From: Halomarina pelagica
GTDB taxonomy: Archaea > Halobacteriota > Halobacteria > Halobacteriales > Haloarculaceae
Reading direction: 5' to 3'
Assembly: GCF_024228315.1 (NCBI RefSeq)
Contig: NZ_CP100454.1
Location: 2,480,001 to 2,544,000, forward strand
DNA length: 64,000 nt
Below are positions 18,543-49,568 of the stretch, one piece after another. The position numbers were made by a program, and so were the translations under genes. Under the pieces are notes generated by a model, which saw only the letters and a program-made list of their open reading frames with translations, was not told the DNA's origin and made no database searches. How positions within the stretch are numbered: the stretch's first letter is position 1; each line of letters starts with the position of its first letter.

Positions 18543-20459
18543 ATGAGCACGGTAGAGAAGCAACTCGACACGTTGAAGGCAGAGATTACAGAGGAGGTCC
18601 CCAGCGACATTTCCATCTCCGACGTCACCTACGAGGGACCGGAGCTGGTCATCTACACGCGCGATCCGAAGCGGTTCGCGCGGAACGGTGACCTGATCCG
18701 GACGCTCGCGGGGAAGCTGCGAAAGCGCATCACGGTCCGTCCGGACCCCGACGTGCTCTCGCGCCCCGCCGACGCCGAGGAGCAGATCCGCTCGGTCATC
18801 CCCGAGGAGGCGGGGGTCACCGACCTCGACTTCCACGCCGACACCGGCGAGGTGGTCATCGAGGCCCAGAAGCCGGGGATGGTCATCGGGCGGCACGGCT
18901 CGACCCTCCGCGAGATCACCCAGCGCGTCGGCTGGACCCCCGAGGTGGTCCGCACGCCGCCCATCGAGTCGTCGACGGTCTCGAACGTGCGGAACTTCCT
19001 GAAGCAGGAGCGCGACGAGCGCCGCGACATCCTCGAGCGGGTGGGTCGGCAGATCCACCGCAAACAGCTCTCGAACGAGGAGTGGGTGCGCATCTCGACG
19101 CTCGGCTGCTGTCGGGAGGTGGGACGCGCGAGCTTCATCCTCTCGACGCCGGAGACGCGCATCCTCGTCGACTGCGGCGACAAGCCCGGCTCCGACGACG
19201 TGCCGTACCTCCAGGTGCCCGAGGCGCTCGGGTCGGGCGCGAACTCGCTCGACGCGGTCGTCCTGACCCACGCCCACCTCGACCACTCGGCGCTCGTCCC
19301 GCTCCTGTTCAAGTACGGCTACGACGGGCCGATCTACTGCACCGAACCGACCCGCGACCTGATGGGACTGCTGACGCTCGACTACCTCGACGTCGCCGCG
19401 AAGGAGGGGCGCACCCCGCCGTATCAGTCCGAGATGGTCCGCGAGGCGATCAAGCACACAATCCCCCTCGAGTACGGCGACGTGACCGACATCGCCCCGG
19501 ACGTGAAGCTCACGTTCCACAACGCCGGGCACATCCTCGGGAGCGCGGTGAGCCACTTCCACATCGGCGACGGCCTCTACAACGTCGCGTTCTCGGGCGA
19601 CATCCACTACAAGGACACCCGCCTGTTCAACGGGGCGGTCAACGAGTTCCCCCGCGTGGAGACGCTCGTCCTCGAGTCCACCTACGGCGGTCGCAACGAC
19701 TACCAGACCGACCAGGAGGACTCAGAGCGGAAGCTGGTCGAGGTCATCAACCGGATCTACGACGAGGGCGGGAAGGTGCTCATCCCCGCGTTCGCCGTCG
19801 GGCGCTCCCAGGAGATCATGCTCGTCATCGAGGAGGCGATGCGGACGGGGAAGATCCCCGAGATGCCCGTCCACCTCGACGGGATGATCTGGGAGGCGAC
19901 GGCCATCCACACGACCTACCCCGAGTACCTCCGCGACGACCTCCGCGACCGCATCTTCCACGAGGACGAGAACCCCTTCCTCTCGCCGCAGTTCAACCAC
20001 ATCGACGGCGGCGAGGAGGAGCGCCAGGAGATCGCCGACGGCGACCAGTGCATCATCCTCTCGACCTCCGGCATGGTCACCGGCGGCCCCATCATGTCCT
20101 GGCTCGAACACGTCGGTCCGGACCCCAAGTCGACGATGGTCTTCGTCGGCTACCAGGCCCAGGGGACGCTCGGTCGCCGCATCCAGAACGGCTGGGACGA
20201 GATCCCGATCAACGGCTACGGCGGCCGCGCGAACACGCTACAGCTGAAACTCGACGTGGAGACCGTCGACGGCTTCTCCGGCCACGCGGACCGCAACGGC
20301 CTGATGAACTTCGTGCGGACGATGAACCCGCGCCCCGAGAAGGTGCTCTGCGTCCACGGCGACGAGGGCAGCGTCCAGGACCTCTCCTCGGCGCTCTACC
20401 ACGAGTTCAACATGCGGACCTTCGCGCCGAAGAACCTCGAGACGTTCCGGTTCAAGTAG
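18543..20459 (+). CDS. fttA: KH-domain beta-CASP ribonuclease, archaeal transcription terminator aCPSF1/FttA
   Basis: FttA/aCPSF1 cleaves nascent RNA at U-rich ends and releases archaeal RNA polymerase. The 638-residue protein has two N-terminal KH domains (about 1-145, with the RNA-binding loop PGMVIGRHGST), then a metallo-beta-lactamase domain with THAHLDHS (His243, His245, Asp247, His248), the further ligand regions FHNAGHILGSA and FSGDIH, an inserted beta-CASP domain, and the C-terminal histidines in GFSGHADRNG and VHGDEG. Length and order match the family. The upstream 200 bp gives a possible long leader. It is one of the most certain calls here. Confidence 0.97.
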   Translation: MSTVEKQLDTLKAEITEEVPSDISISDVTYEGPELVIYTRDPKRFARNGDLIRTLAGKLRKRITVRPDPDVLSRPADAEEQIRSVIPEEAGVTDLDFHADTGEVVIEAQKPGMVIGRHGSTLREITQRVGWTPEVVRTPPIESSTVSNVRNFLKQERDERRDILERVGRQIHRKQLSNEEWVRISTLGCCREVGRASFILSTPETRILVDCGDKPGSDDVPYLQVPEALGSGANSLDAVVLTHAHLDHSALVPLLFKYGYDGPIYCTEPTRDLMGLLTLDYLDVAAKEGRTPPYQSEMVREAIKHTIPLEYGDVTDIAPDVKLTFHNAGHILGSAVSHFHIGDGLYNVAFSGDIHYKDTRLFNGAVNEFPRVETLVLESTYGGRNDYQTDQEDSERKLVEVINRIYDEGGKVLIPAFAVGRSQEIMLVIEEAMRTGKIPEMPVHLDGMIWEATAIHTTYPEYLRDDLRDRIFHEDENPFLSPQFNHIDGGEEERQEIADGDQCIILSTSGMVTGGPIMSWLEHVGPDPKSTMVFVGYQAQGTLGRRIQNGWDEIPINGYGGRANTLQLKLDVETVDGFSGHADRNGLMNFVRTMNPRPEKVLCVHGDEGSVQDLSSALYHEFNMRTFAPKNLETFRFK

Positions 20460-20822: not shown

Positions 20823-21986
20823 ATGTCGGACATCGTTCTCCTCGACGGCGCGCGCACCGCACACGGCTCGCTCCTTGGCGGGCTCTCGTCGCTGTCGGCG
20901 ATCGAACTCGGCACGACGACGCTCGACGCGGTCCTCGACCGGACGCCCCTCGCCCCGGACGCGGTCGACTGGGTGGCCCTCGGCTGCGCGATCCAGGCCG
21001 GCCTCGGGCAGGTGCCCGCGCGGCAGGCGGTCGTCGCCTCGCGGCTGTCGGACGGGACGCCCGCGACCACGATCAACGAGGCCTCCGGCTCCGGCCTGCG
21101 GGCTATCGCGCTCGCGGCCGACCGCATCGAGGCCGGCCGCGCCGAGGTCGCGCTCGCCGGCGGCATGGAGTCGATGACGAACGCGCCGTACGTCCTCCCC
21201 GACTACCGCACGGGGCGGCGGTACGGCGACGCCACGCTGGTGGACTCGATGATCCGCGACGCCCTCTGGGATGAGAGCTACGACGCCCACATGGGCGAAC
21301 TCACGGAGGAACTGGTCGAGCGCGAGGGCATCCCCCGCGAGGCGCAGGACGAGTACGCCCTGGAGAGCAACCGGCGCGCGGTCGAGGCCGTCAGCGCCGG
21401 TCGCTTCGACGCCGAGATCGTCCCCGTCGAGGCGGGCGGCGAGCGCGTCGAGACGGACGAGGGGCCGCGCGAGGACACCTCGATGGAGCGACTGGCGGGG
21501 CTCCCCCCGGCCTTCGGGTCAGATGGGACCATCACGGCCGGAAACGCCTCGAAGCTGAGCGACGGCGCGGGGTGCGTTGCGCTCGCGACCGCCGACGCGG
21601 CGGACGACCTCGGCGTCGACCCGCTCGCGCGCGTCGTCGACTACGCCGTCGCCTACCGCGACCCGAAGTGGTTCAACGTCGCGGTCGCGGACGCCGTGGA
21701 GGAACTGCTCGCGGCGAACGACCTCGCCGCGGACGACGTCGCGCTGTTCGAACTCAACGAGGCGTTCGCCGCGCAGATGGTGTACGTCACGGAGCGACTG
21801 GGGATCCCCCGCGATCGGCTGAACACGCGCGGGGGCGCGGTCGCGTTCGGCCACCCCATCGGCGCGAGCGGCGGCATGCTCGCCACCTCGCTCGCCTACG
21901 AGATGCGCGAGGCCGACGCCCAGTACGGCGTCGTCGGTATGAGCATCGGCGGGGGCGGCGGGATCGCGATGCTCCTCGCCCGGTAG
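20823..21986 (+). CDS. Thiolase-family protein lacking both catalytic cysteines
   Basis: The 387-residue protein is a full-length thiolase by fold: N-terminal IVLLDGARTAHG, LNEAFAAQ with the usual Asn, GGAVAFGHPIGASGG with His344, and a Gly-rich end. In the nucleophile loop, however, the expected Cys-Gly-Ser-Gly is Ser-Gly-Ser-Gly (NEASGSGLRA, Ser88, codon TCC at 21084-21086), and the second catalytic Cys is also Ser (MSIGGGGG, Ser374). Ordinary thiolases condense or cleave acyl-CoA through a Cys thioester, so this protein probably has altered chemistry or is a non-condensing relative. The ATG at 20823 fits the family N-terminus. The neighbouring aminotransferase starts 45 bp downstream. Confidence 0.9.
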   Translation: MSDIVLLDGARTAHGSLLGGLSSLSAIELGTTTLDAVLDRTPLAPDAVDWVALGCAIQAGLGQVPARQAVVASRLSDGTPATTINEASGSGLRAIALAADRIEAGRAEVALAGGMESMTNAPYVLPDYRTGRRYGDATLVDSMIRDALWDESYDAHMGELTEELVEREGIPREAQDEYALESNRRAVEAVSAGRFDAEIVPVEAGGERVETDEGPREDTSMERLAGLPPAFGSDGTITAGNASKLSDGAGCVALATADAADDLGVDPLARVVDYAVAYRDPKWFNVAVADAVEELLAANDLAADDVALFELNEAFAAQMVYVTERLGIPRDRLNTRGGAVAFGHPIGASGGMLATSLAYEMREADAQYGVVGMSIGGGGGIAMLLAR

Positions 21987-22031: not shown

Positions 22032-23153
22032 ATGACCGAGTTCTCTCGGCGGGTCGAGCGGATCTCCATCAGCGGGATCCGCGAGGTGTTCGAGGCGGCG
22101 GGGGCGGACGCGATCAACCTCGGCCTCGGCCAGCCGGACTTTCCGACGCCCGAGCACGCGAAGCGGGCGGCCATCGACGCCATCGAGTCGGGCGCGAGCG
22201 ACGCGTACACCTCGAACAAGGGCACTCTCGCGCTCCGCGAGGCGATCACCGCGAAGCACGAGCGGGACAACGGCTTCGCGCCCGATCCCGGGAACGTCAT
22301 CGCCACGGCGGGCGGTAGCGAGGCCCTGCACATCGCGCTGGAGGCGCACGTCGAGGACGGGCGGGAGGTGATCTACCCCGATCCCGGGTTCGTCTCCTAC
22401 GAGGCGCTCACCCTGCTCGCGGGCGGGACGCCCAGGCCGATCCCGTTGCGCGAGGACCTCACGATGGACCCCGCCGCCGTGGAGGAGGCGATCACCGACG
22501 ACACCGCCGCGTTCGTCGTCAACTCGCCCGCCAACCCGACCGGGGCCGTCCAGTCGGAGGCGGACATGCGAGAGTTCGCCCGCATCGCCGACGAGCACGA
22601 CGTGCTCTGCCTCTCGGATGAGGTGTACGAGCGACTCGTCTTCGAGGGCGAGCACCACTCGCCGATGCGGTACGCCGAGACGGACAACGTCGTCGTGGTG
22701 AACGCCTGCTCCAAGGCCTACTCGATGACCGGCTGGCGACTCGGCTGGGTGACCGCGAGCGAGCGGCGGATCGAGCGCATGCTCCGCGTCCACCAGTACG
22801 CCCAGGCCTGCGCGAGCGCCCCGGCGCAGTTCGCCGCCGAGGCCGCCCTCTCCGGACCGCAGGACGTGGTGGACGAGATGGTGGCCGCCTTCGAGGAGCG
22901 CCGCGACGTCCTCCTCGACGGTCTCGAGGACATGGGCCTCCGGACGCCGACCCCGCAGGGGGCGTTCTACGCGATGCCCGAGGTCCCCGATGGGTGGGTC
23001 GAGGCGGTCATCGACCGCGGCGTCGTCGTCGTCCCGGGCGAGGCGTTCGGCGAGCACGGGGCGGGGTACGCGCGGATCTCCTACGCGGCCGGCGTCGAAA
23101 CGCTCCAGGAGGCGCTCGAGGCGATGCGCGAAGCCACCCTGGCCGTGCGCTGA
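22032..23153 (+). CDS. PLP-dependent class I/II aminotransferase
   Basis: The 373-residue protein is an aspartate-aminotransferase-fold enzyme. It has INLGLGQPDFPTPEH near the N-terminus, VNSPANPTGAV, the PLP aspartate region LCLSDEVYERL, and the Schiff-base lysine Lys228 in CSKAYSMTGWRLGW, with the substrate arginine late in YARISYAAG. It transfers amino groups between an amino acid and 2-oxoglutarate. Aspartate, alanine or aromatic specificity cannot be told. It follows the thiolase-fold gene by 45 bp and may be co-transcribed. Confidence 0.92.
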   Translation: MTEFSRRVERISISGIREVFEAAGADAINLGLGQPDFPTPEHAKRAAIDAIESGASDAYTSNKGTLALREAITAKHERDNGFAPDPGNVIATAGGSEALHIALEAHVEDGREVIYPDPGFVSYEALTLLAGGTPRPIPLREDLTMDPAAVEEAITDDTAAFVVNSPANPTGAVQSEADMREFARIADEHDVLCLSDEVYERLVFEGEHHSPMRYAETDNVVVVNACSKAYSMTGWRLGWVTASERRIERMLRVHQYAQACASAPAQFAAEAALSGPQDVVDEMVAAFEERRDVLLDGLEDMGLRTPTPQGAFYAMPEVPDGWVEAVIDRGVVVVPGEAFGEHGAGYARISYAAGVETLQEALEAMREATLAVR

Positions 23154-47518: not shown

Positions 47519-47947
47519 TCAGCGCGGCACGAACCGCACCAGCCGCTCGCCGGACGTCCTCGACTCGCCGACCGTCGCGCCGACGGTCATCCCCGTCTCG
47601 ACGGCCTCGGGGTCGGCGTCCACGACCCCCGTCAGCCGGACGGTACCGAAGTCGACGACGGCGGTCGCGTACGGCGCGTCGTCGGCGAACTGCGGCGTCG
47701 GGACGCGGACGACGGTGTGGGTCGCGACCGTCCCCGACTCGGGGAGCGGGTGCTCGTCGAGGTCGCGCGCGCCGCAGTGCGGGCAGACGCGCCGGGGCGG
47801 GAGCGATCCGTGGTCGTTCGGACAGCGGAGGTAGTACCCCTCGCCCGCCTCGATCGCGTCGAGCAGGTCGTCGAAGCCGTCGTTTCGACCCCCGCGACCA
47901 CGGTCGCTCCCGCCGGTCGTTCCCTGATCGCGCTCGTCTCCGCTCAC
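47519..47947 (-). CDS. Zn-ribbon/OB-fold (DUF35-type) partner of thiolase
   Basis: The 142-residue protein has an acidic disordered N-terminus, a rubredoxin-like ribbon YLRCPNDHGSLPPRRVCPHCG and an OB-fold (VRVPTPQFADDAPYATAVVD). One position of the first CxxC is Asp, so the metal site may be altered. Such proteins bind a SCP-x-like thiolase and aid acyl-CoA condensation. GTG at 47947 overlaps the thiolase stop, so the two are coupled. Confidence 0.9.
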   Translation of the reverse strand: MSGDERDQGTTGGSDRGRGGRNDGFDDLLDAIEAGEGYYLRCPNDHGSLPPRRVCPHCGARDLDEHPLPESGTVATHTVVRVPTPQFADDAPYATAVVDFGTVRLTGVVDADPEAVETGMTVGATVGESRTSGERLVRFVPR

Positions 47948-49110
47948 GCGACCACCTCCAGCACGTGGACCGTCGCGCTGGCGACCGTGCCGCCCGCGTT
48001 GTGTGCCAGGCCGACGCGCGCGCCGGACGCGTCGGAGGCGCGCGGGTGCGTCCCCGAGAGCAACCGCGCGAGCGAGACCACCTGCGCGACGCCGGTCGCG
48101 CCGACCGGGTGGCCCTTCGCCTTCAGGCCTCCCGAGAGGTTCACCGGCAGGTCGCCGTGGCGGGTCGTCTCGCCGCGCCGGGCCGCGCCGATGCCCTCGC
48201 CGGGGTCGTAGAAGCCGAGCGCCTCGATCGCGAGCACCTCGGCGATCGTGAAGCAGTCGTGGACCTCCGCCACGTCGACGTCGCCGGGGCCGATCCCCGC
48301 GTCGGCGTAGGCCTCCTCGGCGGCGTCGGCGGTCGCGGGTGAGCGGGCGAAGTACTCCCGGTCCTGCAGCGCGAGGTTGTCGCCGCCCTGGCCCGTGCCG
48401 GTGACGGCGACCGGGGCGTCGAGTCCCGCCCGTTCGGCGTAGTCGTCGCTCACGAGCACGGCGGCGCTCGCCCCGTCGGTGATGGGGCAGGAGTCGTAGA
48501 GTCCGAGCGGGTCGGCGATACGCGGCGCGTCGAGCGCCTCCTCGACCGTGATAGACGAGCGGAACTGCGCGTGCTCGTTCGGCAGCGCGTGCTCGTGGTT
48601 CTTCACCGCGACGTGCGCGAGGTCCTCGGCGCTCCCCCCGAACTCCTCGAAGTACGCCCGCGCCATCAGCGCGTAGGCGGCGGGGAAGGTCATCCCGGCG
48701 CGGATCTCGTAGAGGTCGTCCGCGGCGATGGAGAGGCCCTCCGTCGCGCCCGCGGTGCCCATGTTCGTCATGCGCTCGGCCCCGCCGACGAGCACCACGT
48801 CCGCCTCGCCGGTGCGAACGGTTCTCACGGCCTCGCGGACGGCGACGCCGCTCGACGCGCACGCCGACTCGTAGCGCGTCGCGGGCGCGCGGACGCCCAC
48901 GGCCTCGGCCATCTGCGGGCCCATGTGCCCCTGGTGCTCCGCGAGTTCGCCCATGAAGTTCCCGAAGTAGAGATGCTCGATCTCCCCGGGGTCGACCCCC
49001 GCCTCGTCGAGGGCGGCCAGTCCGGCCTCGGCGAACAGGTCGCGCCCGGTGCGGTCCGGGAACCGACCGAAGCGAGTCAGGCCACCTCCCGCAATGCGTA
49101 CCTCTGACAT
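47944..49110 (-). CDS. SCP-x-type thiolase (acetyl-CoA acetyltransferase)
   Basis: The 388-residue thiolase keeps the nucleophile Cys in YESACASSGVAV, the HDCF motif (VHDCFTIAEV) that replaces NEAF in this branch, and GHPVGATG with the catalytic His. It cleaves or condenses acyl-CoA, and the adjacent Zn-ribbon protein is the usual partner in archaea (for example HMG-CoA-type or ketothiolase complexes). In contrast to the protein at 20823, this one has a normal active site. ATG at 49110 is the start. Confidence 0.93.
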   Translation of the reverse strand: MSEVRIAGGGLTRFGRFPDRTGRDLFAEAGLAALDEAGVDPGEIEHLYFGNFMGELAEHQGHMGPQMAEAVGVRAPATRYESACASSGVAVREAVRTVRTGEADVVLVGGAERMTNMGTAGATEGLSIAADDLYEIRAGMTFPAAYALMARAYFEEFGGSAEDLAHVAVKNHEHALPNEHAQFRSSITVEEALDAPRIADPLGLYDSCPITDGASAAVLVSDDYAERAGLDAPVAVTGTGQGGDNLALQDREYFARSPATADAAEEAYADAGIGPGDVDVAEVHDCFTIAEVLAIEALGFYDPGEGIGAARRGETTRHGDLPVNLSGGLKAKGHPVGATGVAQVVSLARLLSGTHPRASDASGARVGLAHNAGGTVASATVHVLEVVA

Positions 49111-49568
49111 GGCCGGACGTAGTTCACTGCCCGGTATATGTCTGCCGTCTATGGACGATGACGCGCCCAACCGGCACGACGATGGACGAATTCGTCTACG
49201 ACGGTTGCCGTCGATCCTCGGCGCGACTCGCTCGGGCGCGCTGGCGAACAGGCGACGCCGGGGCGGGGTCGCGGGGCGCGGCGGCGTCTCCCCGCGAGCA
49301 TCTGGTTCGCGGGGCGTGGCGTCGCACAACCGCAGCCGCCCCGCGACGAACGTCACGTCACACGGACGCTGGTCCCGCTTTCGGATATAAAAGTACGGAC
49401 GGCGGACTGGCTTTACCACCGCCGACGCCAGCGCGGCACCCGCGAGGGAGTGTAACGAGCGAGCGGACCGACGGAACCCCCGAGCGAAGCGAGGGGGTGA
49501 GGAGGGTTTTGCTCCAGCTTTTGCCAGCGAGGCGGCGAAGCCGCCGAGCGCAGCAAAAGGTGGTGGTT
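49111..49568. other. 458-bp intergenic region with a repeat-like hairpin element
   Basis: No gene is supported. The left half is unremarkable GC-rich DNA with a possible promoter patch GATATAAAAG near 49383-49392. The right half (49465-49568) is a hairpin-rich element annotated separately. Confidence 0.5.
49465..49568 (+). repeat. Hairpin-rich repetitive element next to the 95-residue protein gene
   Basis: The element contains CCCCCGAGCGAAGCGAGGGGG-like sequence (49477-49497) and a larger hairpin at 49518-49559 in which CTTTTGC pairs with GCAAAAG and GGCGGC with GCCGCC around GAA. From memory, a sequence reading CCAGCTTTTGCCAGCG to GCAGCAAAAGGTGG recurs in haloarchaeal genomes. Only one copy is in this window. 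It ends at the stop codon of the 95-residue gene, so it may also act as its terminator. Confidence 0.5.

Follow-up and report, generated by a model that had tools for sequence, protein, structure and literature searches.

A haloarchaeal clade of classical thiolase homologues with serine at both catalytic cysteine positions

Thiolase-fold proteins with and without catalytic cysteines

Thiolases are a universal family of metabolic enzymes, and textbooks recognise the classical ones by two catalytic cysteines. The second of these is considered to be the base when C-C bonds are made or broken, and the loops of the family have a fingerprint that includes the VMG loop (PMC3406046). In the Clostridium thiolase, the nucleophile loop, the catalytic cysteine loop and the regulatory determinant region (residues 280-292) take part in a Cys88-Cys378 redox switch, and Cys thiolases are inactivated by H2O2 from 100 uM upwards (PMC4595758).

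A serine nucleophile in the thiolase fold is already known from two kinds of enzyme, and the clade that we describe here differs from both in its sequence. The first kind is the haloarchaeal BktB-alpha and PhaA-alpha of Haloferax mediterranei (HFX_6004 and HFX_1023), described in PMC7137286 as catalytic subunits with Ser-His-His that are active in vivo; repression phenotypes of BktB/PhaA in this species have also been reported (PMC8387396). The second is DpsC, the daunorubicin priming ketosynthase, which has Ser-His-Asp instead of Cys-His-Asn, acylates itself and passes acyl groups on (PMC12664062). There is also TLP1 of Mycobacterium smegmatis, a monomeric protein with an extra C-terminal domain, which is without the catalytic Cys, NEAF and GHP (PMC3406046).

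The window, a stretch of 64,000 nucleotides from Halomarina pelagica, contains a thiolase-family gene at 20823..21986 on the forward strand that runs from ATG to TAG with its frame intact and encodes 387 aa. The product has full-length Pfam matches to Thiolase_N (E 5e-80) and Thiolase_C (E 1e-34), and scores 396 bits with TIGR01930, the acetyl-CoA C-acyltransferase subfamily model, for which the cut-off is 240. The AlphaFold prediction from a 41-sequence alignment shows the whole thiolase fold, with pLDDT 96 and pTM 0.94, and in the PDB the model matches biosynthetic thiolases best (TM 0.96-0.98, 40-46% identity). Judged by profile and predicted fold, the protein is a classical thiolase homologue of the biosynthetic type, with NEAF and GHP. 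We treat the idea that it works like a thiolase as a proposal, because both defining Cys motifs fail.

According to the first-pass annotation, Ser88 and Ser374 take the place of the two catalytic Cys while the Asn of LNEAFA and His344 are kept, and alignment confirmed that these residues were read correctly. Ser88 (codon TCC, 21084-21086, context NEASGSG) aligns to the nucleophile Cys of solved thiolases and sits in the nucleophile loop, where codons 86-90 (21078..21092) read EASGS and the canonical sequence is K-V-C-G-S. Ser374 (codon AGC, 21942-21944) aligns to the second catalytic Cys, in a loop (codons 372-379, 21936..21959) that reads GMSIGGGG where xLCIGGGx is canonical. The NEAF motif with Asn312 (21756..21767) and the GHP motif with His344 (21849..21857) are retained, all on the forward strand, and His156-Met157 and Gly376 are also in place in the alignment with solved thiolases.

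Classical thiolases covered by TIGR01930, such as Ralstonia eutropha PhaA, Clostridium acetobutylicum ThlA and the Zoogloea ramigera thiolase, have the same full-length fold as the one predicted for the window protein, and the NEAF, GHP, CoA-site and tetramer-loop segments are common to both. However, the classical enzymes have Cys/Cys, a Pro in the VMG loop and K-V-C, whereas the window protein has Ser/Ser, Val and E-A-S, and its second loop has G-M-S. BktB-alpha and PhaA-alpha share the Ser nucleophile with it, but they are of the SCP2 type (PF22691) with an HDxF His base, whereas the window protein has PF02803, NEAF and Ser374. They also require a co-transcribed OB-fold (DUF35-like) beta subunit, and we saw no such partner for the window protein: a single DUF35 query of limited sensitivity, which picked up no partner next to the BktB-alpha-like protein L003 described below either, gave no match in the window context or at 45 orthologue loci. 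Membership in the BktB-alpha/PhaA-alpha group was rejected on the motif (no HDxF), the C-terminal domain and the partner.

DpsC has the same Cys-to-Ser change at the nucleophile of a thiolase fold and still forms an acyl-enzyme, but it belongs to the KAS III family, has a Ser-His-Asp triad and acts on an acyl carrier protein, whereas the window protein keeps Asn312. When we checked for a DpsC-like protein, the best profiles of the window protein were thiolases and its ketoacyl-synt match was weak and partial. TLP1 is likewise a thiolase fold without the catalytic Cys, but it has YSCF, GGL and NGG in place of NEAF, GHP and CXG, and the window protein has NEAF, GHP and SIG. We found no published description of a Ser/Ser classical clade in the literature searched, which covers few subscription journals.

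There are other thiolases in the window and in the genome. The one at 47944-49119 on the reverse strand had been called normal, and it does have its catalytic Cys. Pfam and motif put it in the SCP2/DUF35 subfamily (PF22691, HDCF, DUF35 neighbour) and not among the classical enzymes, so it is no like-for-like control. Together with the DUF35 OB-fold/Zn-ribbon gene that comes after it (47519-49119, reverse strand), it makes a two-subunit thiolase. The proper internal control is a classical paralogue in the same genome (L002, C1:926259), which is Cys-His-Cys. Near 3021286 of the same contig, there is a Ser-nucleophile SCP2-type thiolase with QTSSSGG (L003:679-1833); it shares 76% identity with WP_004060618.1, encoded on pHME505 of Haloferax mediterranei. 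The type of WP_004060618.1, its place on a plasmid and a small gene that follows it lead us to infer that it is BktB-alpha, and the host genome appears to carry one such protein separately. The window protein is only about 25% identical to L003.

Fixation of the two serines

We collected 56 orthologues with 60-97% identity, which come from separate genome and plasmid records, cover several haloarchaeal families and lie on both chromosomes and plasmids. For comparison we used 124 other classical thiolases, of which 80 are mainly bacterial, 17 are paralogues from haloarchaea and 27 come from other archaea. Checked residue by residue, Ser-His-Ser is present in 56/56 orthologues and Cys-His-Cys in 124/124 of the others, and there were no mixed Cys/Ser states in either set. 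The nucleophile motif, which is CXS in classical thiolases, is SGS in 55 orthologues and SGT in one, with Cys in none of the 56. The motif of the second Cys (CXG) is SIG or SVG in every orthologue. In a tree of 80 sequences, the Ser/Ser proteins grouped together as a single clade (SH-aLRT 100, with a stem of 0.75 changes per site) apart from the haloarchaeal Cys paralogues. Because the swap is fixed in all 56 orthologues, we regard Ser/Ser as a maintained variant.

Ser/Ser thiolases are under purifying selection. The median dN/dS was 0.087 for 45 pairs of Haloarcula-like sequences and 0.175 for 91 pairs of Natrialbaceae-like sequences, where the group names were guessed from gene context and size. 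Ser374 is encoded by AGY in 41 sequences and by TCG in one, which means that the residue is Ser despite a codon change. The probability of a sequencing error or of local gene decay is close to nil. The gene can be lost, as one orthologue broken by a transposon-like insertion demonstrates, but 56 separate genome or plasmid records agree, the frames are open, dN/dS is low and a congener has a 97% identical copy. We rejected this explanation because the orthologues are all Ser/Ser. The first-pass annotation had argued for altered chemistry and against decay. We looked for orthologues with Cys at both sites and there were none. With one 56-member clade, dN/dS medians of 0.09-0.18 and no intermediates, the argument against decay holds; altered chemistry is plausible but unproven.

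Asn312, Glu313, Phe315, His344 and Gly376 are invariant in 56/56 orthologues, and His156-Met157 and NAS are likewise conserved. These residues bear on whether the protein is a non-catalytic pseudoenzyme that binds acyl-CoA or has a regulatory role. Both catalytic thiols are gone, and TLP1 is an existing thiolase-like protein without the catalytic Cys (PMC3406046). We consider a pseudoenzyme quite improbable, given that both sites are fixed as Ser with no drift to Ala or Gly and that Asn312, His344 and Gly376 do not vary, whereas TLP1 lost NEAF and GHP as well (PMC3406046).

Active-site loops and possible chemistry

The two serines are not the only changes. His14, Glu86-Ala87-Ser88, Tyr278, Val288, Gly372-Met373-Ser374 and Gly379 are fixed in 56/56 Ser/Ser proteins and are rare or absent in the 124 others. 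His14 (codon at 20862..20864, forward strand) is Ile, Val, Met or Gln in nearly all Cys thiolases. Codons 278-288 (21654..21686, forward strand) align with the thiolase VMG loop or "regulatory determinant region" (PMC4595758, PMC3406046). At Tyr278 the other thiolases have Gly, Ala or Ser, and at Val288 there is Pro in 124/124 of them. The VMG loop of the window protein reads DPKWFNVAV, although Cys thiolases also vary at VMG itself. Asp273 is fixed in the Ser/Ser clade, yet it is found in 9 of the 124 others. A Met288-to-Phe exchange was dropped as a clade-specific change because Phe is also present in 44 of the 124 Cys thiolases. Except for His14 and Asp273, the fixed changes map to the nucleophile loop, the regulatory determinant region and the catalytic cysteine loop, and these additional changes suggest a rebuilt active site.

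Cysteine is scarce in these proteins, with a mean count of 0.64 vs 4.4 in the haloarchaeal Cys paralogues, and 27 of the 56 have none at all. For this reason, no hidden Cys substitutes for the lost ones, and we excluded another conserved Cys as the nucleophile. One reason for keeping the swap could be that a Cys-free substitute survives where ordinary thiolases are inactivated, by oxidants or by natural products that react with thiols, and this would be compatible with either of the mechanisms considered below. The 27 Cys-free members fit such a role, as does the fact that Cys88-Cys378 is the redox-sensitive site of thiolases and that the other fixed changes lie in the switch loops (PMC4595758). 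On the other hand, we noticed no linkage to oxidative-stress or antibiotic genes in the neighbourhoods examined, and the gene is patchy (48/292 Halobacteria genomes), so we think this explanation unlikely.

Our preferred mechanism, which we give a little less than an even chance, is that the enzyme forms an acyl-O-Ser88 intermediate from acyl-CoA and retains acyl transfer of the thiolase type. His344 would activate Ser88 for attack on the acyl group of an acyl-CoA or a 3-oxoacyl-CoA, and the oxyanion holes, which are retained, would hold the resulting acyl-O-Ser88 ester. As in ordinary thiolases, this ester would then be resolved by CoA-SH or by a second acyl-CoA, and Ser374 or a newly fixed polar residue (His14, Glu86 or Tyr278) would relay the proton. 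The most likely role would be that of a short-chain 3-oxoacyl-CoA thiolase or acyltransferase in acyl-CoA catabolism or beta-hydroxyacid (PHA) metabolism. A Ser swap need not abolish thiolase activity because Ser nucleophiles work in the thiolase fold: BktB/PhaA are a precedent for retained thiolase chemistry, and DpsC for acyl transfer. The weak point is the base, because BktB-alpha has the His of HDxF and the window protein only Ser374, and as a base serine falls far short of cysteine. The loss of the VMG-loop Pro in the clade and a gene context that varies between families also count against this reading. We found no activity data for any Ser/Ser member in the literature searched.

It is also possible, with only slightly lower probability, that the protein is a Ser-His acyltransferase or hydrolase that has abandoned C-C chemistry, with acyl-Ser88 passed to water or another acceptor and Ser374 structural. 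DpsC, with the same fold and Ser-His-Asp, self-acylates and transfers acyl groups (PMC12664062). The loss of the base Cys and of the invariant VMG-loop Pro, together with the newly fixed E86, A87, Y278 and G372-M373, points to a remodelled site. However, the protein keeps every CoA-site, NEAF and GHP motif that thiolase chemistry requires, the neighbourhoods examined showed no conserved linkage to a gene for an acyl acceptor or a carrier protein, and the Ser-nucleophile BktB/PhaA still do Claisen chemistry (PMC7137286). We therefore place retained thiolase-type chemistry slightly ahead of a pure acyltransferase or hydrolase. The broader proposition, that a whole clade of classical thiolases turned into Cys-independent oxygen-nucleophile enzymes with a rebuilt site and a non-thiolase reaction (acyl transfer or 3-oxoacyl-CoA hydrolysis), is one that we would sooner bet against.

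Gene context, distribution and implications

The Ser/Ser thiolase gene of the window comes after the gene for the termination factor FttA/aCPSF1 (18543-20459) and before one for a class I/II PLP aminotransferase (22032..23153, forward strand, 45 bp downstream of the thiolase); UbiA lies further on. In the window's family, the thiolase and aminotransferase genes usually stand side by side, but relatives that lack the thiolase have the aminotransferase too, which is therefore probably no more than a positional neighbour. We found no conserved operon partner of the Ser/Ser thiolase, as the context differs between families. In many Natrialbaceae, dihydroorotate dehydrogenase follows the thiolase, and several of these have genes for acyl-CoA dehydrogenase, a MaoC/mesaconyl-CoA hydratase-like protein, CoA-transferase III, acyl-CoA ligase or MmgE/PrpD nearby. 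This cluster indicates a role in acyl-CoA metabolism; we did not accept it as a conserved partner set since it is seen only in some Natrialbaceae. In one species, a TnpB/Cas12f1-like gene (PF07282; L126:9436-10314, reverse strand) directly adjoins the Ser/Ser thiolase.

A close orthologue is present in 48 of 292 Halobacteria genomes, which are a drawn sample and not every species, and there is a sharp identity gap below about 60%. Within the window's family, 30 of 116 genomes carry one. Members on plasmid records include Haloferax mediterranei WP_004061064.1, Haloterrigena turkmenica WP_012946035.1 and Natronorubrum aibiense WP_152944508.1, as well as proteins from Haladaptatus salinisoli and a Halalkalicoccus sp. 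No Ser/Ser thiolases outside the class Halobacteria were seen in the phylum sample and the plasmid collection. The broken orthologue mentioned above (L128:8691-9751, genome G137) is split by an insertion of ~1.06 kb whose frames resemble a helix-turn-helix protein and a DDE transposase (IS630-like). It is a natural knockout, and because the insertion interrupts the gene, the gene is dispensable in that species.

Of the 48 genomes with the Ser/Ser gene, 47 have a class III PHA synthase (TIGR01836), vs 115 of the 244 without it. The association (Fisher p about 1e-12 by genome and 9e-4 by genus) is confounded by phylogeny and genome size, and the link to the Ser/Ser thiolase is only suggestive.

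In database records, these genes bear the name "thiolase family protein" and terms for fatty acid beta-oxidation, and such annotations should be read with caution. If the members of the Ser/Ser clade are enzymes, they must work without the usual sulfur chemistry of thiolases. Since they have no catalytic thiol, they should resist oxidants and thiol-reactive inhibitors, and if they are active, they may offer oxidant-resistant catalysts for haloarchaeal bioplastic pathways. With a natural, conserved double-Ser clade at hand, one can ask directly if thiolase chemistry depends on sulfur, or if the fold becomes an acyltransferase once the sulfur is gone.
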